DNA of 64,000 bases. Source: a bacterium SCSIO 12643 (lineage in GTDB: Bacteria; Bacteroidota; Bacteroidia; Flavobacteriales_G; Salibacteraceae). The position numbers and the translations under genes were made by a program. The notes under the pieces were generated by a model. It had not been told where the DNA came from. It searched no databases and worked only from the letters and a program-made list of their open reading frames with translations. The DNA lies in contig CP073750.1 of NCBI GenBank assembly GCA_024398135.1, forward strand, positions 2,976,001 through 3,040,000, given 5' to 3'. Within the stretch, counting starts at the first letter, position 1. Every line of letters begins with the position of its first letter. Shown here in pieces: positions 2,900-49,566 of the stretch.

Positions 2900-5131
2900 T
2901 TAGTGAACTACATTTTGATCTACGTTTAATGAAGCTGGTTGTTGTTCTGCTTTAAGCTTTGCCTCTTCAGGAAGAACTAAATCCATTTCTTCAATTAAGT
3001 TTTTCGCACCGGCATATTTATCCATGATGAATAATACGTAACGGATATCCACAACAATCGTTCTTTGAATGTTTGGTTCGAAATAAATGTCACCACTCAT
3101 TGCTTCCCAGTTACCATCAAATGCGCAACCAATTAATTGCCCTTTTGCGTTGATTACCGGAGAACCGGAGTTACCACCTGTAATATCATTGTTAGTCAAG
3201 AAACACACTGGCATAGTACCATCCGGATTGGCATACTGACCATAGTTTTTGTCGTTGTATAAATCTACTAATTTTTGAGGAACAACAAACTCAGGATTTG
3301 AATTATCCTTTTTCTCCATCACACCTTTTAAAGTAGATTTAAAATCATAAGACACCGCATCATATGGCGCGTATGGTAATACTTGTCCATAAGTCAACCT
3401 CATAGTAGAGTTGGCGTTCGGAGCGTATTTTTTATTTGGATTCATTTCTCTCAATCCTTTTACAAATAGACGATTTCCTTTGTCTAAAAGATCGAAACTT
3501 TCTTTATACTCTCCACCCATGATTTCACGGTATTTTGCATATAAAGAACCCATTAATTTTCTTGCAGGATCTTTCTCTAAAGTTTTCAATTGCTTAGAGC
3601 TTACAAAGAACTCATTCATTTTTTCTTCAGAAGCGAAGATTGAATTTTCGAATAAACCTTCGGTCAATTTAGTAAAGTCTCCTTTGTTTTTCTTAACTAA
3701 GTCTAAGAAGTATTGAGGTTGTTGATCTTTTGGAAGATCGTTGTAGTACATTTCTAACATGGCAGCAGTAACTTCTTTATCTGTAGCCATATCGTAATCT
3801 TTAAAATGCTTAGCACTTCTACCTTTCAATCCTTGAATGAGTTTATCCACTTTCTTTGGATCAGGTTCGCCCATAGCTAAAGCTTTCTGAAGCCCATTTG
3901 CACGGTAAGAGAATAATAGAATCTCAGAACCTACAACAGCTTCGTAGAAATAAGTTGCTGATAAAACATAAGGTTTTTGTTTTTCGTAACCTTTTTCGAT
4001 TAAAGATAAAGCTTCACCGTATTCTGCTTTTCTGCTATCCGAAGCATTTACCCAATCAGAATAAGACTTTTCAATTTCTTGTTTTTTCTCGAAAACATGG
4101 TTTTTCTTCAATTGTTTGGTTTGTCCAATGAAGTATTTCCAGTAGTTAGATACACGTGCATATTTAGAAGCATATTTAATTCTGGTTGCATCGCTTTGAT
4201 CCATATGTTTTTTGTAGATATCTAATTTCTTATCACGAATTTTTACACGCGCAGGTTGATCTGTATCTACCGCTTGTTTTACTCCCCATGAAGTTAAGTA
4301 TCTATCCGTACTTCCAGGATATCCCATGATCATAGCATAATCATTTGCTTTTACACCTTGTAATGAAATAGGTAAGCTATGCTTAGGCTTTAATGGAATA
4401 TTGTTTTTAGAATAACCTGCAGGTTTTCCATCTTGACCAGTGTAAATTCTCAATACAGAGAAATCACCTGTGTGACGAGGCCACATCCAGTTATCTGTAT
4501 CACCACCATATTTACCTACTGATGATGGAGGTGCACCTACCAAACGAACATCTTTATAAGTAGTGTAAACAAAAAGGTAGAATTCATTTCCTTCGTAGAA
4601 AGACTTTACATTAGCATCAAATTTACCTTCTTCTTTCGCTACATTTTCGATTGAATCTGCTAAGTGAGAAATTATTCCCTGACGCTCTTCTTCAGTCATT
4701 TTTTCGTTTAATTGACTGTTGATGATTTCAGAAACATCTTCCATTCTTTCTAAGAAAGAAGCAGTCATTCCTTGTGCTTGTAGCTCCTGATCTTTGCTAT
4801 ACGCCCAAAATCCATCAGTTAAGTAATCGTGCTCAGGAGAAGAGTTACTTTGAATCGCTCCAAATGCACAGTGGTGATTGGTTAACGTTAAACCTTCTTT
4901 AGAAATGATCTCAGCAGTACAACTTCCACCACTTAACATTACAATCGCATCTTTCAAACTACTGTGATTGATACTGTAAATTTCCTCAGCTGTTAACTTT
5001 AATCCTTCTTTTTGCATATCAGCATAATTCAATCTGCCGATAAACATAGGTAACCACATTCCTTCATCAGCTTTTACACCAAATGGCATGGCCATCAAGA
5101 ATGCGAATACTATAATAATTCCTTTTTTCAT
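2900..5131 (-). CDS. S46 family dipeptidyl-peptidase (DPP7-like)
   Basis: Exported serine exopeptidase that releases dipeptides from peptides in the periplasm. A signal peptide covers residues 1-21. The chymotrypsin-like triad motifs are LTNHHCAFG (His, about 86-87), DTDNWMWPRHTGDF (Asp) and GGNSGSP (Ser655). The segment after the nucleophile reads AFDGNWEAMSGD. As I recall the family, Gly at this position marks DPP7 (hydrophobic P1), whereas DPP11 (Asp/Glu P1) has Arg. The 743-aa length is normal for S46. The gene stands alone, with a long terminator behind it. Confidence 0.92.
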   Translation of the reverse strand: MKKGIIIVFAFLMAMPFGVKADEGMWLPMFIGRLNYADMQKEGLKLTAEEIYSINHSSLKDAIVMLSGGSCTAEIISKEGLTLTNHHCAFGAIQSNSSPEHDYLTDGFWAYSKDQELQAQGMTASFLERMEDVSEIINSQLNEKMTEEERQGIISHLADSIENVAKEEGKFDANVKSFYEGNEFYLFVYTTYKDVRLVGAPPSSVGKYGGDTDNWMWPRHTGDFSVLRIYTGQDGKPAGYSKNNIPLKPKHSLPISLQGVKANDYAMIMGYPGSTDRYLTSWGVKQAVDTDQPARVKIRDKKLDIYKKHMDQSDATRIKYASKYARVSNYWKYFIGQTKQLKKNHVFEKKQEIEKSYSDWVNASDSRKAEYGEALSLIEKGYEKQKPYVLSATYFYEAVVGSEILLFSYRANGLQKALAMGEPDPKKVDKLIQGLKGRSAKHFKDYDMATDKEVTAAMLEMYYNDLPKDQQPQYFLDLVKKNKGDFTKLTEGLFENSIFASEEKMNEFFVSSKQLKTLEKDPARKLMGSLYAKYREIMGGEYKESFDLLDKGNRLFVKGLREMNPNKKYAPNANSTMRLTYGQVLPYAPYDAVSYDFKSTLKGVMEKKDNSNPEFVVPQKLVDLYNDKNYGQYANPDGTMPVCFLTNNDITGGNSGSPVINAKGQLIGCAFDGNWEAMSGDIYFEPNIQRTIVVDIRYVLFIMDKYAGAKNLIEEMDLVLPEEAKLKAEQQPASLNVDQNVVH

Positions 5132-11144: not shown

Positions 11145-11376
11145 CTTCACATATAGATGATATATATTAGTTTATTAGGCATTGACTGTTAATTTATTAT
11201 GATTAAACCTCCGAATTAAGTTAAATTACCTTAAAAGCAAATCGTTTAATAAAATGGAATTGCTATTTAATTGTTTGATTTGTATGTGCTTATAGTAGCT
11301 GTTTGTGATGTGTGAAGGTACTACTATAAATAGAAATCCACATTGTGAAGAATTAAGTAGGAATGGTTAAAAAAAT

Positions 11377-11384
11377 TACTTTTG
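11377..11384 (+). promoter_or_regulatory. -7 box of the bamD operon promoter
   Basis: TACTTTTG lies 5 nt before the ATG at 11390, so transcription should begin at or next to the start codon. It also lies downstream of the in-frame ATG at 11363, which argues against that longer start. Confidence 0.65.
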
Positions 11385-11389
11385 CACGC

Positions 11390-12211
11390 ATGATTAAAAA
11401 AGGGATAAGCTTTTGGGTGGTATTAGTTGTGGCCATTATTGTGAGTTCGTGTTCTGAATACAATAAGGTTTTAAAATCTACCGATTTGGAATACAAATAT
11501 TCTAAAGCCAACGAGTACTATGAAAAAGGTGACTATTACAAGGCTTACCCTTTAATTGAAGAATTAACTGCGATATACAGGGGGCAGAAAAGATCAGAGA
11601 AACTGTATTATATGTTTGCTTACAGTGATTTTTATTTAGAGGATTATCTGTTGGCTTCACATCGTTTTTCTGAATTCACGAAAACCTTTCCTACGAGTCA
11701 GTATGCTGAGGAATGTGCTTTTATGAGTGCTTTTTCATTGTACAAATTATCTCCTCCACCGAAATTAGATCAATCGAATACCTATTCAGCGATATCAAAT
11801 TTGCAACTTTTTGTGGATCGCTATCCAAGAAGTACAAGAGTGGATAGTTGTAATGTCTTGATTGTTGAACTAGAAAGAAAGATTGAGCAGAAGGCATTTG
11901 ATGGTGCAAATCAGTATAAGAAGATGGAAAATTATACTTCTGCTGTATTGACGTATGAGAATATTTTGAAGGATTTTCCGGATACGAAATACAGAGAAGA
12001 CATCTATTTTAACATATTTGAATCCTATTATTTGCTTGCAATTAAGAGTGTTCAAGAAAAAAAGAGCGAAAGAATTGCCAAAGCTTTCAAAGCTTATGTT
12101 AATTTTGCAGACCGTTTTCCCAGTAGCGAACGTATGAGCATGGCTCAGGAAATGTATGCGCGATTGGAAAAAATGAATGAAAAATTGAAAAAAGATAACG
12201 ATGACGTATAA
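11390..12211 (+). CDS. bamD: BamD-like outer-membrane assembly lipoprotein
   Basis: Lipoprotein of the BAM complex that inserts beta-barrels into the outer membrane. From the ATG at 11390 the protein is 273 aa with signal MIKKGISFWVVLVVAIIVSSC and lipidated Cys21. An in-frame ATG at 11363 would put nine extra residues in front and lies upstream of the promoter box. The mature part holds TPR-like helices (KANEYYEKGDYYKAYPLIEEL; RFSEFTKTFPTSQYAEEC; FVDRYPRSTRVD) typical of BamD/YfiO. The stop overlaps rpoZ by 11 bp, consistent with translational coupling in a bamD-rpoZ-coaBC-DUF4835 operon. Confidence 0.9.
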   Translation: MIKKGISFWVVLVVAIIVSSCSEYNKVLKSTDLEYKYSKANEYYEKGDYYKAYPLIEELTAIYRGQKRSEKLYYMFAYSDFYLEDYLLASHRFSEFTKTFPTSQYAEECAFMSAFSLYKLSPPPKLDQSNTYSAISNLQLFVDRYPRSTRVDSCNVLIVELERKIEQKAFDGANQYKKMENYTSAVLTYENILKDFPDTKYREDIYFNIFESYYLLAIKSVQEKKSERIAKAFKAYVNFADRFPSSERMSMAQEMYARLEKMNEKLKKDNDDV

Positions 12212-14678: not shown

Positions 14679-16793
14679 TTAAATAGCTTCAAGTTTAGCT
14701 ACTTTGGTTTTTGTTTGGAAATTCCCGAATAAGACAGTCGCATTTGTTCCTGAGATTTCCAGTACTTCCCCGGTTTCTGTTCCTGTAATGAGTCGAACTT
14801 TTGATCCTACTTCGATAGGTTTTACGACTTTTTTCTTAACTGGTAGTGGTTTCTTTTTGATTTTAGGTTTGAAAGTGCTTTTTGTTTGCTTTTTAAGTTT
14901 AGCCTTTTTCGTAGCTTCAGTCAGCTTGGTTTTCTCCATAATGAAGTACTTCCGTACATCTTCCATAAAAGGTTTACTGGCTTTGTTGCCTTTCATTTTG
15001 TTGAGGAAAAACTCAAGCTTCTTTCCCCAATTGATAAACTTATTGTTTTGCTCAATTTGGGTCTGTTGCTTTTGAATTTGTTGCGTAATATGATGCTGGA
15101 GATCTTCGTAATATGAAACAGATTCTTCCGCCTTCTTAGTAGCTTTTTTATGTGTATCTGTGATTTGTTGGATAGATGCCTTCTCTTTTTGAAGTTCAGC
15201 AATCAAACGATCCATTTCTACACGTTTAACATCCAAAAGCTTTTTAGCATCATCGATCAGTTCAATTGGAATTCCATTGGTTTGTGCGACCTCGAACGTG
15301 AATGATGATCCGGGTTGTCCTACGGATAGTTCAAACAACGGAGCCAGTGATTCGCGATCAAACAGCATACTGGCGTTCACCGCATTTCTTAATCTTGAAG
15401 CTTTTAACTTGATATTCGCATAATGCGTGGTGATCACCCCGAAACACTTTTTATTATACAGGTTTTCAAAGAACACTTCCGCTAGCGCTCCTCCCAGTTC
15501 AGGATCTGATCCTGTTCCAAATTCATCCAGAAGTAGAAGTGTTTTTCGATTGGCAACATCCAAAAAATACTTCATTCTTTGTAGGCGATAGCTGTATGTA
15601 CTTAATTCGTTTTCAATAGACTGATTATCGCCAATATCCGTTAGTACCTTATGAAACCATCCAAGTTTGGATCTGTGATCTACCGGAATTAATAGTCCCG
15701 ATTGAAACATGAGTTGTAAAAGACCTACGGTTTTCAGTGTAATGGATTTACCTCCGGCATTTGGTCCGGAAATCACCATCATACGACTGAATTTGTCCAT
15801 TTTCACAGATTGCGGAAAGGTTGGTTTTTCTAATTCATTATTAGCTAACAATAGCAGTGGATGCTGTGCTTCAATTAAATCGATAAGAACTTCTTTAAAT
15901 TCGATATGGGGTTTTAATGCACCCATTTTTTGTGCGAGACGACCTTTTGCCTGAACAAAATCTAACTCCGTTAGAAGAAACTGATATGTCTTAATGAGTT
16001 CTAAATGAACACGCAACGTTTTTGTTAGTTCTTTGAAAATTCTATTGATTTCCAAACGTTCTTCGTCTATGAGCTGATTCAGTTCATGGTGAAGCGGCTC
16101 GTTAGATTTTGGTTCAATATAGGCCACATGTCCGTTATTTGAAGAGCCAATAATGCTTCCAGGAATACTTCTTTTATGACTTGCAGATACAGCTAATACC
16201 CGTTTACCGTTCACGAATGATTCACTATTGTCTGCAAGCATTCCTGAACCATGAAGTCTTTTTAAAATGCGATCAAAATTGACATTGATTTGTTTACGAA
16301 TAGATCGGATATCCATTCGGATTTCGAACAACTTTGGTGAGGCATCATCTCTGACCTGATATTTACGGTCCAGAACTTTTTCTATTGGAGTGATGATCTC
16401 CTTAGAATAATAAGTGGTTTGAATTAACCCAAATAAGTGCGGATATTCTTCTTCAAACGGTTTTATAAATTTCACCAATTGATTTGCAATCCGGCTTGCG
16501 TGAAGAAGTGCGATAAAGCCTTCTAGCGTGAGCTGACTTCCTTTTTTATTAAGGAAAACGATTTCTTTGGTGAGTTCTGTGAATTCGAGTCTTGGAAATA
16601 CGACTTCTTCTTTTTGAATATCAACATATTCCTGAACTAAAGAAAGTGCCAGATCAGCTTCTGAAAGACTCGGAAGCGAATCTAAATTATGAATTCGTTC
16701 ACTAGCCGTAGGTCCAAAACACAGTTTCGAAAGCATTTTTTTAATGGCTTCGAACTCTAAATCCTCTATCGTTTGTTGATCTGCAAATTTCAC
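14679..16793 (-). CDS. mutS2: MutS2-family ATPase without an Smr domain
   Basis: MutS2 homologue, acting on recombination intermediates or stalled ribosomes in other bacteria. The MutS core and ABC ATPase are clear: Walker A GPNAGGKSITLKT, Walker B LLLDEFGTGSDPELGGAL, H-loop TTHYANIK. The C-terminus has a coiled coil, a Lys-rich linker and a KOW-like end (GSKVRLITGTETGEVLEI). The Smr nuclease domain of many MutS2 proteins is missing. I choose the GTG at 16793 (704 aa): a TTG-N20-TACATTTG promoter lies inside the longer reading from TTG 16832, and the new start gives the usual short lead to TIEDLEF. The start is moderately sure, the family very sure. Confidence 0.9.
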   Translation of the reverse strand: MKFADQQTIEDLEFEAIKKMLSKLCFGPTASERIHNLDSLPSLSEADLALSLVQEYVDIQKEEVVFPRLEFTELTKEIVFLNKKGSQLTLEGFIALLHASRIANQLVKFIKPFEEEYPHLFGLIQTTYYSKEIITPIEKVLDRKYQVRDDASPKLFEIRMDIRSIRKQINVNFDRILKRLHGSGMLADNSESFVNGKRVLAVSASHKRSIPGSIIGSSNNGHVAYIEPKSNEPLHHELNQLIDEERLEINRIFKELTKTLRVHLELIKTYQFLLTELDFVQAKGRLAQKMGALKPHIEFKEVLIDLIEAQHPLLLLANNELEKPTFPQSVKMDKFSRMMVISGPNAGGKSITLKTVGLLQLMFQSGLLIPVDHRSKLGWFHKVLTDIGDNQSIENELSTYSYRLQRMKYFLDVANRKTLLLLDEFGTGSDPELGGALAEVFFENLYNKKCFGVITTHYANIKLKASRLRNAVNASMLFDRESLAPLFELSVGQPGSSFTFEVAQTNGIPIELIDDAKKLLDVKRVEMDRLIAELQKEKASIQQITDTHKKATKKAEESVSYYEDLQHHITQQIQKQQTQIEQNNKFINWGKKLEFFLNKMKGNKASKPFMEDVRKYFIMEKTKLTEATKKAKLKKQTKSTFKPKIKKKPLPVKKKVVKPIEVGSKVRLITGTETGEVLEISGTNATVLFGNFQTKTKVAKLEAI

Positions 16794-16798
16794 GTCAG

Positions 16799-16829
16799 CA
16801 AATGTATTCAGACCAAATCCGTATACCAA
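16799..16829 (-). promoter_or_regulatory. mutS2 promoter
   Basis: TTG at 16829-16827, 20-nt spacer, then TACATTTG at 16806-16799 on the minus strand. The GTG start codon follows 5 nt later, so the transcript would be leaderless. Confidence 0.65.
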
Positions 16830-16961
16830 CAATTAATTAAGGATATATGAAAATGGTACTTTGAGGTAGGTGAAATAGTATTTTTATCGGAAATGTTGAT
16901 GGCTGACAATAAAAAGAAATTGTAAATTTTAGTTTAGTTTTCAAATTAAAACGATTGTGAT

Positions 16962-17486
16962 ATGAGAAGAGTATTCGAAAAAACACTGTTTTTGGGTTTG
17001 GTTTTTATAGTTGGTGCTTTGGTATCATGTAAACATGATCCAGTGGTGAGTGAATCAAATATTGATAGAGAATTGTATGAAATGGCTTTGAAAACGGACG
17101 GTTATACCTGGTTTAAGAATTCGAGTATTCCATTGGGCAGAAGTTCCGGAAGTGGACACTCAGCACCACTATTAAGAACTCGTTTTAATAATATTGCTTC
17201 TGCAAAATTAGATTCCGCTGGTAGAATCATTGATGGATCGGTATTTCCAACCGGGTCCGTGATTGTTAAGGAACTTTTGAATGCAGATCAAAGTCTGGAG
17301 CGTTATGCTATGTTATTTAAAGACCCTACCAACCAATATGCGGATGCTAATGGATGGGTTTGGGGATATATATTTCCGGGGGGGGATGTATCGATATCAG
17401 CAACCGAAAAAGGCGGAGTATGTATAGGATGTCATTCGCAAAGTGGGAATATTGACTATATGCTAATGAATAAGTTTTACCCTTAA
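16962..17486 (+). CDS. Cytochrome P460-like c-type lipoprotein
   Basis: 174-aa lipoprotein (signal MRRVFEKTLFLGLVFIVGALVSC, lipidated Cys23). The C-terminus carries one c-haem motif, CIGCH at residues 154-158. The body resembles the cytochrome P460 family: FPTGSVIVKEL, YAMLFKD, GWVWGYIFPGGDVSISA just before the haem motif, then a D-Y-M segment. Family members handle hydroxylamine or NO, or are of unknown function; no substrate can be assigned here. It stands alone, overlaps the converging pseudouridine synthase gene by 4 bp, and has no haem-maturation genes nearby. Confidence 0.65.
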   Translation: MRRVFEKTLFLGLVFIVGALVSCKHDPVVSESNIDRELYEMALKTDGYTWFKNSSIPLGRSSGSGHSAPLLRTRFNNIASAKLDSAGRIIDGSVFPTGSVIVKELLNADQSLERYAMLFKDPTNQYADANGWVWGYIFPGGDVSISATEKGGVCIGCHSQSGNIDYMLMNKFYP

Positions 17487-26522: not shown

Positions 26523-27182
26523 CTATTTAGTATGAAAATTAATTAACGGTTGGTCCAAATTCACCTTTAATTTCATTTTGCTGGAATATAATATGTTATA
26601 AGCCAACAAAGCGATTAAGATACCTAAAATGGAACCTGCAAAGACATCAATCAAAAAATGTTGAGAGAGATACATCCTGGAATATCCAACCAGAACCGCA
26701 ATTAGGATTAGTAAGAAATCAAATTTGGTGTTTTTTTGAGCTAAAAGAAGTGCTGTAGTCAGTCCAAAAATAGCGGTGGTATGGCCCGAAGGAAAGCTAA
26801 AAGCGGTATGCATATCAACTCCATCAATGAAGTACAAAGGAATATCTAATTGTTCAAAATACGCAGAAGGTCTTGGGACTGGTCCAAAAACAACTTTCTT
26901 AAAAAATTGAGAAATTATTCCAACTAAAACTCCTGTTAAAATAATTTGAAGAGAAAGCCTTTTACTGATGAATAAGCATGCCAAAGCAACAGCCACAAAA
27001 GCAAATCCATCTCCTACATAAGTGAAATATTTGAAGAAAAAATCAAATAAACCACCATGTATATTGTTGATAAAAAGATGAATATCTTTTTTCTCGAAAA
27101 GCAGCAATATCAAACCGGAAAGGGAAAATAAAAGCGCATAGACGCCAAAAAAAAGCTTGTGTTTTTGAATATTTTGGATCAT
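26523..27182 (-). CDS. PAP2-family membrane phosphatase
   Basis: 219-aa membrane phosphatase of the PAP2 superfamily. Motifs: basic KKVVFGPVPRP, SFPSGHTTA (catalytic His) and SRMYLSQHFLIDVFAG (second catalytic His and Asp). Five to six hydrophobic segments. Likely substrates are lipid phosphates such as undecaprenyl-PP, lipid A or phosphatidate, but none is fixed. I use the ATG at 27182. The in-frame TTG at 27191 that would extend it by three codons is the TTG of the -7 box TACTTTTG. Confidence 0.9.
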   Translation of the reverse strand: MIQNIQKHKLFFGVYALLFSLSGLILLLFEKKDIHLFINNIHGGLFDFFFKYFTYVGDGFAFVAVALACLFISKRLSLQIILTGVLVGIISQFFKKVVFGPVPRPSAYFEQLDIPLYFIDGVDMHTAFSFPSGHTTAIFGLTTALLLAQKNTKFDFLLILIAVLVGYSRMYLSQHFLIDVFAGSILGILIALLAYNILYSSKMKLKVNLDQPLINFHTK

Positions 27183-40344: not shown

Positions 40345-40372
40345 AAAAATAGAGGGCTAGCCCTCTATTTTT
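40345..40372. terminator. Bidirectional terminator between purC and the HEAT-like gene
   Basis: AAAAATAGAGGG pairs with CCCTCTATTTTT (12 bp, loop CTAG). Flanking T-runs occur on both strands. It partly overlaps the end of the converging gene. Confidence 0.85.
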
Positions 40373-40890
40373 TTGTCTATTAGTATGGATTTGATCTCGA
40401 GTAAAACACCTTGACTTTCCGATTTATTTTTGAGAATAAAATCGTTAAGTTTTCTCAGGTTCATGTCAACTTTGTCTTCTGTTGTCTCATCAAATTCACT
40501 ATTATCGATAATGGTCATGATATCTATAGCATTGGTGTAAGAGTTCGTTAATGCAAAATCGATAAGTTCTGTAAGGTATTCAGAGGCATCATAACCTGAT
40601 TGCCAAATGGCATTTAAAGCCAACCATTTTTTTTCGTCCGAAACATCGGCTTGAATATATTGAATCAAAGACTCTAAAGCACTTTTATCTTTTAGTCCAA
40701 ACATCAATGACTCAACTTTGTTTTTGATCTTTTGAGAATCGGACTCTGCCCAAAGAGAAATCAATGTTGGAATGAGAGACACGTCTCCTTTAGACTCCAT
40801 TTTGTCTAAAGCTTTTTGAACTAATACCTCTTCAGACGATAACAATCCACTTTTAATATCAGCAATTTCTTTAGCTCTTTTTGTGCTCAT
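40357..40890 (-). CDS. HEAT-repeat-like protein
   Basis: 177-aa helical protein with HEAT-like repeats: VQKALDKMESKGDVSLIPTLISLWAESD, KSALESLIQYIQADVSDEKKWLALNAIWQSG, SEYLTELIDFALTNSYTNAIDIMTIID. Conserved in Bacteroidota, no known function. The start is the ATG at 40890. An in-frame TTG at 40905 belongs to the -7 box TACTTTTG (40910-40903), so the longer reading is rejected. Confidence 0.75.
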   Translation of the reverse strand: MSTKRAKEIADIKSGLLSSEEVLVQKALDKMESKGDVSLIPTLISLWAESDSQKIKNKVESLMFGLKDKSALESLIQYIQADVSDEKKWLALNAIWQSGYDASEYLTELIDFALTNSYTNAIDIMTIIDNSEFDETTEDKVDMNLRKLNDFILKNKSESQGVLLEIKSILIDKKIEG

Positions 40891-40902
40891 AAATTTTTTT
40901 TG

Positions 40903-40910
40903 CAAAAGTA
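40903..40910 (-). promoter_or_regulatory. -7 box of the HEAT-like gene
   Basis: TACTTTTG on the minus strand, 12 nt before the ATG at 40890; its TTG imitates a start codon. Confidence 0.55.
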
Positions 40911-47721: not shown

Positions 47722-47729
47722 TATATTTG
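47722..47729 (+). promoter_or_regulatory. -7 box of the carboxypeptidase-regulatory protein gene
   Basis: TATATTTG with 6 nt to the ATG at 47736. Its own TTG (47727) is in frame and imitates a start codon. Confidence 0.6.
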
Positions 47730-47735
47730 GCCAAT

Positions 47736-48464
47736 ATGAGGTTAGGAGTTCTCGGTCTACTATTGATATTATTCCATTTTACGCAAGCTCAGGAAAGCAA
47801 AGTGGTTGTAAAAGGGCAGGTGTATGGTGTAAATCAGACTACTGATCTTTTAACACTTTTTGTAGTTAGCCAGGAATATCAAACAGGAAATTTCGGTAAT
47901 CCGGATGGAACTTACGAGATTAAAATAAATCGAAACGATACGATATTAATTGGATCGATAGGGTATTTTACTTCTAAGGTTTGTGTGAAGGATAGTACGC
48001 TAAAGGACACTATTTATGTGGATGTGCAGTTAAAACAGTTACAGTATTATTTGCAAGAGGTAACCGTTTTGGCCCCAAGAGAGATGCGCAGGATATATGA
48101 GGATATTGAAAAACTAGGTTACGATCCTAAAGATGATCGTTTAAGTGGTTTTGTGGACCCTTTATCTAGCCCGATTACCGCGTTGTACGAAATGTATAGT
48201 CGTCATGCGCGTCAGGAACGATTAGCTAAAAAGTTGATTAATGATGCCAAACGAAGAGACCTCTTAAAAGAGTTGTTGGCTAAATATGTGGATTATAACA
48301 TTATTGATTTAGATGATGATCAGTTTGATGATTTCATCGAATATTTAGATGTAACGGATGAGTTTTTAAAGAGTTCTTCACAATATGATTTTATCATCTT
48401 CGTAAAAAAGAAGTACCAATATTATATGCGTCAGCATAAATACGATGGTTGGGAATCCTACTAG
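47736..48464 (+). CDS. Exported CarboxypepD_reg-like domain protein
   Basis: 242-aa exported protein: signal MRLGVLGLLLILFHFTQAQ from the ATG at 47736, then a CarboxypepD_reg-like beta-sandwich (VVVKGQVYGVNQTTDLLTLFVVSQEYQTGNFGNPDGTYEI, residues ~20-115) and a charged helical C-terminal half (SRHARQERLAKKLINDAKRRDLLKELLAKYVDYNI). There is no TonB-plug or barrel, unlike SusC proteins. Conserved in Bacteroidota; function unknown. Confidence 0.8.
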   Translation: MRLGVLGLLLILFHFTQAQESKVVVKGQVYGVNQTTDLLTLFVVSQEYQTGNFGNPDGTYEIKINRNDTILIGSIGYFTSKVCVKDSTLKDTIYVDVQLKQLQYYLQEVTVLAPREMRRIYEDIEKLGYDPKDDRLSGFVDPLSSPITALYEMYSRHARQERLAKKLINDAKRRDLLKELLAKYVDYNIIDLDDDQFDDFIEYLDVTDEFLKSSSQYDFIIFVKKKYQYYMRQHKYDGWESY

Positions 48465-48465
48465 G

Positions 48466-49566
48466 TTACTCTACAACGAAAGAGTTTTTGTAAATCTTAA
48501 AGTAAATGAAATTTAAGATAGGAATGCTTAAGAAGTAAATCAACCCGATATTAAATGAAGTAAATAACCCTACAATTATTGCTTGAAGAAGATAAACGAT
48601 AAACGATAGGAAAATACCAAATACCAAATCCAAAGAAGATTCAAAAGCCGGATCTGCAGCCAGTTTTGTCGTAAGTGTTCTAACCAACTTAAATGCAAGG
48701 AAATTATTGATATACATGAACAATCCGAAAGGGAAAAACAAGACTTTAACCCATTTAGGTGTATCTGAAACCTGACGAGGTGGAAGTTCGGTTTCATTAA
48801 CGATGGCGTCTAATAATTTTTGATTGCTATCAAAACTAGCTTCTAAATCATGTGTGCCACTGGCATTACTAACCCATTCTTTAGATACCTGATGATATTT
48901 TAGACCTCTTGGCATATCAATTGTCAGCGGGCGCATTCTTTTATCCAGCTCAGCCAATAATTCAATATATCCTTTATTGTTATTTTCCAAATATGATTTG
49001 TAAAAAGGTTTTACCCTAAATGGTTCTCCATATTTGACAAACAAATCTGATCTGAACCTTCTATGTGCGCTATAATTAATTCCTATGGGAACAATCTTAA
49101 GATCGGTATCCGGATTTTTATCTAATACACTAAATGCAATTCTGGCAATTCCTTTCTGAACTGGACGGATAGCTCTTCTGAGGTTATGATTTCCTTCTGG
49201 AAATATCGTTAACGGATGTTCGCCTTCAATAATTACATCGACACATTTATCAATAATCTTTTTGTTTCTTTTTACCGTATGCATGCCATCACGCTCTCTG
49301 TAAATAGGCATCATATAGATAAAGCCGAAGAATTTGGCTCCAATTTTAGACTGAAATACTTTGGCTTGAGTCAAAAAATAAGAGAAGCGATTTTGGGTCA
49401 TCACTACAGCAAGAGCATCCATAAATGCGTTTTGATGCGTAGGGGCAAAGATGATAGAACCCGACTCTTCAAATTTCGGATGTTTAACGCTTTTAAAGTT
49501 TCTATAAAAAAATGAAAGACCGAGTCTCACATAGATTCTCAAAATAATATAAAAGGCTTTCTGCAT
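48466..49566 (-). CDS. PlsC-like glycerolipid acyltransferase
   Basis: 366-aa membrane-bound acyltransferase. Motif I reads THQNAFMDAL, with His and Asp five residues apart instead of the usual four. Motif III is FPEGNHN; PIGINY matches motif IV. The C-terminal ~90 residues contain two to three hydrophobic segments. Probable role: acylating lysophosphatidate or an ornithine/aminolipid; not decided. Start at the ATG 49566; an in-frame TTG at 49578 belongs to the -7 box at 49583-49576. Confidence 0.85.
   Translation of the reverse strand: MQKAFYIILRIYVRLGLSFFYRNFKSVKHPKFEESGSIIFAPTHQNAFMDALAVVMTQNRFSYFLTQAKVFQSKIGAKFFGFIYMMPIYRERDGMHTVKRNKKIIDKCVDVIIEGEHPLTIFPEGNHNLRRAIRPVQKGIARIAFSVLDKNPDTDLKIVPIGINYSAHRRFRSDLFVKYGEPFRVKPFYKSYLENNNKGYIELLAELDKRMRPLTIDMPRGLKYHQVSKEWVSNASGTHDLEASFDSNQKLLDAIVNETELPPRQVSDTPKWVKVLFFPFGLFMYINNFLAFKLVRTLTTKLAADPAFESSLDLVFGIFLSFIVYLLQAIIVGLFTSFNIGLIYFLSIPILNFIYFKIYKNSFVVE

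Follow-up and report, generated by a model that had tools for sequence, protein, structure and literature searches.

In Flavobacterium johnsoniae, the -7 box of the promoter follows the consensus TAHHTTTG, and 4 or 5 nt separate the box from the RNA-seq-predicted start in 241 of the 434 candidate promoters; the -33 element is described as "much less evident", and among transcripts with a probable promoter, 87% were reported to have leaders longer than 10 nt (PMC6847099). The box lies at -12 to -5 in F. psychrophilum, where 5.5% of the mapped mRNAs are leaderless (PMC9723704), and about 3.7% of the 5' UTRs of B. thetaiotaomicron are shorter than 10 nt (PMC7366714). Leaderless genes, at a few percent, have already been described in Bacteroidota. 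The passages on leaderless mRNAs in these two reports (PMC9723704, PMC7366714) discuss neither GTG starts nor mutS2, and no title or abstract opening that we surveyed on leaderless genes in Bacteroidota reports leaderless GTG genes in the phylum or a leaderless mutS2. When leaderless genes were surveyed by way of Pribnow-like promoters only, they turned up in 1 of 37 Bacteroidetes/Chlorobi genomes; the authors named this limit, yet thought large omissions unlikely (PMC3160421). As for the start codon itself, a 5'-terminal GUG is used well by mycobacteria (PMC4633059) and poorly by E. coli (PMC9031893, PMC4633059).

The proposed mutS2 start and its promoter elements

The locus examined here is the 5' end of mutS2 on the minus strand of the window, the whole 64-kb stretch of DNA analysed, which was taken from the home genome (G000; one contig, 4.12 Mb). 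Its parts are as follows.

16799..16806, minus strand: -7 box TACATTTG of a Bacteroidota sigma-A promoter, fitting the consensus TAHHTTTG and recurring at an identical offset in two further genomes from this genus (G001 and G002)
16827..16829, minus strand: putative -33 element TTG, 20 nt ahead of the -7 box, read from the sequence
16793..16794, minus strand: predicted transcription start, at the G of the GTG (5 nt past the box) or the preceding C (4 nt)
16791..16793, minus strand: GTG start codon of mutS2, kept in G001 and G002
14679..16793, minus strand: mutS2 coding sequence, 704 aa and stop, without an Smr domain (TIGR01069)
16830..16832, minus strand: TTG start of a longer reading (717 aa), judged not to be the start, as its extension LLVYGFGLNTFAD is unconserved
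16962..17486, plus strand: divergent cytochrome P460-like neighbour (Pfam PF16694, 27.6 bits against a cut-off of 27)

The order of these elements on the minus strand is TTG (16829-16827), a 20-nt spacer, TACATTTG (16806-16799), CTGAC and GTG (16793-16791). In a Bacteroidota sigma-A promoter, the -33 TTG or TTTG would stand roughly 19-20 nt ahead of the -7 box. The preliminary description, which had TTG-N20-TACATTTG ending 5 nt before an in-frame GTG at 16793, was exact in this respect. It had also called this the best -33 match among the near-leaderless cases, and indeed six starts in the window have a perfect -7 box 3-9 nt upstream, with a TTG at a spacer of 18-21 only at mutS2. The same TTG at 16829 is the second in-frame TTG of the rejected longer reading, and the mechanical list of open reading frames puts the mutS2 start at TTG 16832 (717 aa). 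No match was obtained at the mutS2 site in a scan for sigma-70 promoters, as expected for Bacteroidota. The box-to-start spacing of F. johnsoniae puts the start of mutS2 transcription at 16793 or 16794, and a leader of 0 or 1 nt is predicted from the promoter placement together with this spacing (PMC6847099). A folding prediction gave a weakly structured leaderless 5' end (-3.3 kcal/mol, z 0.89), in which the first base is left unpaired and bases two and three belong to a weak stem.

The identity of the gene product was supported by a TIGR01069 score of 545 bits, against a cut-off of 400; this NCBIfam match extends to position 687 of the 790 in the profile. A Pfam search gave a MutS_V match, a sub-threshold MSSS match and no Smr match at E 0.001, and a separate Smr-type stretch that matches TIGR01069 lies elsewhere in the genome (G000:C1:95151-95693). 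The MutS2 frames in the class are either near 700-750 aa or near 780-865 aa in length.

Conservation of the start within the genus and across Bacteroidia

The MutS2 identity of the two genus-mates is 79-81%. All three genes have the same GTG, preceded at exactly 5 nt by TTG-N19/20-TAnnTTTG, with a spacer of 20 nt in G000 and G002 and of 19 nt in G001. The box reads TACATTTG in G000, TATTTTTG in G001 and TACCTTTG in G002, each matching TAHHTTTG; its six consensus bases are the same throughout, and the two free positions differ (CA, TT and CC, respectively), no two genomes agreeing in both. A fixed consensus with varying free bases is the pattern that would be expected of a selected promoter. 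The 100 nt upstream share just 30-40% identity in ungapped comparison. This three-genome conservation supported the earlier claim that mutS2 has a GTG start at its own promoter, and it is from the position of that promoter that we infer the leaderless state.

In all three genomes, mutS2 is divergent from the cytochrome P460-like gene, so that the intergenic DNA is where its promoter would be expected. On the mutS2 strand of this DNA, G000 (168 nt) and G002 (153 nt) contain no perfect -7 box besides the one at 5 nt, and the 589 nt of G001 hold one further perfect box, 574 nt from the mutS2 start. These counts bear on the alternative that translation begins at GTG 16793 but most transcripts carry a leader, being initiated at an unrecognised upstream promoter, with the -7 box secondary or one of two. 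Beyond the distant perfect box of G001, this alternative can draw on boxes with one mismatch at 148 nt in G000, at 37, 43, 451 and 540 nt in G001 and at 33 and 108 nt in G002, and on the scope of the scan, which covered -7 boxes of the sigma-A class among the sigma factors of the phylum. Those boxes, however, differ in place from one genome to the next, and the perfect box at 5 nt is common to all three; we regard a mainly leadered mutS2 mRNA as unlikely.

In the second alternative, a transcript that begins further upstream is translated from TTG 16832 or 16829 into a protein of 717 or 716 aa. This reading corresponds to the longest open reading frame, and TTG is a permitted start codon. Comparison of the N-termini of close relatives, suggested as a check in the preliminary description, nevertheless favoured the GTG: the GTG, the -7 box and the 5-nt gap are kept in both genus-mates, but the residues added by the longer reading (LLVYGFGLNTFAD in G000) are unlike in them, and in G001 the frame from the upstream stop to the mutS2 GTG is free of ATG, GTG and TTG codons. 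The longer reading would also put the -7 box inside the coding sequence, finds no perfect -7 box further upstream within the 168-nt intergenic stretch of G000 on the mutS2 strand, and relies on a codon, TTG, that is not enriched 4-5 nt after boxes; it is therefore highly improbable. That the promoter is correct but translation begins at the ATG of codon 20, after a leader of about 57 nt, is hardly credible. All three genomes (G000, G001 and G002) do have a methionine there, but such a start would remove the stretch up to ..EDLEF that aligns in the relatives compared; in many of these relatives an ATG stands where the GTG does or one codon away at most, and residue 6 of the short form is where the TIGR01069 match already begins.

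The first seven codons from the GTG are identical in the three genomes, which is the longest such run in the gene (the next longest is three), and 27% of the same-residue codons of mutS2 are identical in all three. In a control of 38 orthologous genes from two genomes, 89 of 150 codons at the 5' end were identical versus 3295 of 6844 (in the subset with aligned starts), and initial runs of five to seven identical codons occurred in four other genes (seven in g38 and six in g34). Because the control genes show a general 5' effect, the run at mutS2 was given less weight and is taken as mild support.

The comparison was extended over the class with 85 mutS2 5' ends, of which 21 came from the first search, 24 from a class search that matched 168 of 296 genomes, and 40 were fetched; a script set each start at the start codon nearest to the first residue of the query. 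A perfect box was found 3-8 nt before the start in 17 of the 85, and in 38 when up to one mismatch was allowed, leaving 47 with no box at 3-8 nt even on these terms. The 17 boxed starts comprised nine GTG (families f1, f21, f5 and f23), seven ATG and one TTG, and seven of the remaining 68 starts were GTG. Because the rows are related, the boxed GTG starts represent four lineages, not nine events. Among the ten rows of family f55, seven have an ATG with a perfect box 23-27 nt away, two a TTG with the box at 19-20 nt, and one has none; four mutS2 rows outside the 85 (L023, L024, L025 and L027) have no box at 3-8 nt. Given the 47 unboxed ends and the distant boxes of most f55 genes, the leaderless-type layout is not universal for mutS2. 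Of 17 mutS2 loci in a named collection, eight carry the perfect box at 4-5 nt (L066-L072 and L080, L066 being the G001 contig), one has it at 8 nt (L079), one has none (L082), and in seven (L073-L078 and L081) a box ending in A, not G, stands 4 nt before an ATG; L080, L079, L082 and these seven were read by eye.

Box placement in the genome background and other near-leaderless genes

The box alone is not special, as TAHHTTTG occurs 51 times in the 64-kb window versus 60 expected by shuffling. A perfect box at an identical offset was shared by 3 of 43 orthologous pairs (the window against one G001 contig), versus 0.095% of non-orthologous pairs. The three pairs are mutS2, g11, in which the box lies inside the gene, and g43, which is leadered, and the third genome, G002, also has the mutS2 box at that offset.

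The home-genome background was taken from 864 kb of G000, with 708 open reading frames of at least 90 aa in a mechanical list. The distance from the box end to an in-frame ATG in this sample was 4 nt in 8 cases, 5 nt in 14, 6 nt in 2 and 7 nt in 4, with 6 cases in all at 8-13 nt. The 22 boxes 4-5 nt ahead were found at 1157 ATG codons, versus 3 at 3238 for the control codons ATA, ATC and ATT together and 11 at 2077 for AAA. GTG occurred twice at 5 nt (mutS2 and the gene in L140) and once at 7 nt, and TTG never at 3-8 nt. The base before the ATG or GTG was C at 12 of 16 boxes at 5 nt, versus 30 of 85 boxes 16-40 nt away (Fisher P 0.005); such a C followed by a purine initiator is as expected if transcription begins on the start codon. 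At a distance of 4 nt, C preceded the start in just 2 of 8 cases. A -33 TTG with a spacer of 19-21 was present 16 times at 121 sites in G000 (binomial P 0.0014), and the element counts as weak evidence in this genome. The pattern TTG-N18-20-TANNTTTG-N4-RTG gave 15 matches over the whole of G000, all ATG, versus 10 with the reversed pattern; as this difference was too weak, the -33 element was dropped as a criterion.

A count over 35 family genomes used the pattern box-N4-Y-codon at 5 nt, with an offset of 10 nt as the control. The counts at 5 nt versus the control were 238 versus 159 for GTG, 667 versus 377 for ATG and 466 versus 575 for TTG. Over the same genomes, box-N4-Y-GTA/GTC/GTT occurred 1051 times, or 4.42 per GTG, versus a background ratio of 4.6 taken from 1.02 Mb of G000, G001 and G002. 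No GTG-specific excess 5 nt after the box was thus observed over the 35 family genomes; since GTA, GTC and GTT follow in proportion, the rise in GTG looks like a base preference and not start-codon use. Within G000, box-N4-Y-GTG occurred 5 times versus 8 at the control offset. The 1.02 Mb of the three genus genomes gave, at 5 versus 10 nt, 3 versus 3 for YGTG and 16 versus 7 for YGTH, and, as the ATG control, 16 versus 4 for YATG and 31 versus 30 for YATH; the comparison with codons other than start codons covers whole family genomes for GTG and the local 1.02 Mb for ATG. So leaderless GTG genes would be few, individual cases. A recurrent site, TACCTTTGTTWCCGTG, was also encountered in several family genomes. 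In the copies retrieved, just short open reading frames follow it, and it was put aside; its 16 letters also occur at mutS2 of G002.

For four genes of the window with a perfect box within 10 nt of the start, the G001 contig contains an orthologue, and each of these orthologues has such a box too. One of the four is the gene starting at 49566, with a perfect box 9 nt away. Two near-leaderless genes of the window are listed here.

11363-12211, plus strand: bamD-like lipoprotein open reading frame, listed from ATG 11363; TACTTTTG ends 5 nt before ATG 11390
47727-48464, plus strand: secreted-type protein; TATATTTG lies 6 nt before ATG 47736

The signal-peptide-like sequence of the bamD-like gene begins at ATG 11390, and its G001 orthologue has the same layout at 4 nt. 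The G001 orthologue of the secreted-type protein has a GTG 4 nt after the box, an exchange of ATG and GTG at a near-leaderless start. Rules that choose the longest open reading frame misplace such starts, as seen for mutS2 and the bamD-like gene.

Outside the window, the -7 box TATTTTTG ends 5 nt before the GTG of dnaG (primase by Pfam) in both G000 (L225, G000:C1:2413500-2415000) and G002 (L243, G002:C22:14900-16400). Upstream in frame there is no ATG, GTG or TTG in G000 and an ATG at 75 nt in G002. In these two genomes, dnaG appears to be a second conserved GTG gene of the leaderless type. A perfect -7 box also stands 5 nt before the GTG of two orthologous-looking membrane-protein genes, on the minus strand of L140 (G000) and at 284-808 of L238 (G001), with no ATG, GTG or TTG upstream in frame in G001 and a GTG 6 nt upstream in G000. 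A Pfam search with the L238 gene gave no match; the L238/L140 gene may resemble exosortases.

Several further sites were noted. Near G000:C1:4101172, in L159 (G000:C1:4098001-4118000), two genes have perfect boxes 4 and 5 nt before their ATG codons; the pair appears divergent, with the boxes about 22 nt apart, as back-to-back leaderless-type promoters. In the window, the listed TTG start (40905) of the gene at 40357-40905, minus strand, falls inside a -7 box, TACTTTTG, at 40910-40903, and translation more likely begins, after a short leader, at the ATG that follows the box by 12 nt. Near-leaderless ATG starts at 27182 (minus strand) and 57157 (plus strand) have perfect -7 boxes 6 and 4 nt upstream, respectively, and no orthologue of either gene was found on the compared G001 and G002 contigs.

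Proposed initiation at mutS2 and comparison with known systems

In the reading that we propose, the housekeeping sigma-A RNA polymerase would transcribe mutS2 from the -33/-7 promoter abutting the gene. The first base of the mRNA would be the G of GTG 16793 or the base before it, which would make the mRNA leaderless or give it a 1-nt leader. Ribosomes would then start at the 5'-terminal GUG and produce the 704-aa MutS2, and, to judge by leaderless mRNAs elsewhere, the GUG would be recognised by a 70S ribosome together with initiator tRNA. We consider it very probable that the mutS2 mRNA has a leader of at most 1 nt, arises from the abutting sigma-A promoter and is translated from the GUG into the 704-aa protein, the exact transcription start and GUG initiation being what we infer. 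Less expected was the conservation of a putative 5'-terminal GTG at mutS2, in four families, and at dnaG and the membrane-protein gene, within the genus. The conserved cases suggest that Bacteroidota can initiate at a 5'-terminal GUG, and mutS2 offers a specific, testable case for ribosomes of this phylum doing so.

MutS2 of B. subtilis splits stalled ribosomes and acts as a rescue factor (PMC10897456), and undissociated 70S ribosomes have been reported to bind leaderless mRNA directly (PMC9031893). By analogy, the leaderless GUG might be a regulatory device that keeps the basal rate low and lets MutS2 output rise when intact or stalled 70S ribosomes accumulate. We consider this very doubtful; if true, it would explain why a GTG beside the box recurs at mutS2 in four families.

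The protein shares with the MutS2 family the MutS_V ATPase domain and a score above the family cut-off, and it differs from the layout of B. subtilis MutS2, which has a C-terminal Smr domain, in having no Smr match. Mycobacterial leaderless GUG mRNAs have a 5'-terminal GTG start, as proposed for mutS2; the mycobacterial cases were established with reporters and from RNA-seq and ribosome-profiling ends that coincide, whereas here the start is a predicted one, in few genes (PMC4633059). The mutS2 case is a prediction from sequence. The box placement observed here suggests that the survey of Pribnow-like promoters undercounts this phylum (PMC3160421). Between mutS2 and the leaderless mRNAs described in Bacteroidota, the promoter class and the position of the box at the start codon are the same, and the 22 boxes found 4-5 nt before an ATG in G000, relative to 708 open reading frames, are of the same order as the published 5.5% and about 3.7% (PMC9723704, PMC7366714).
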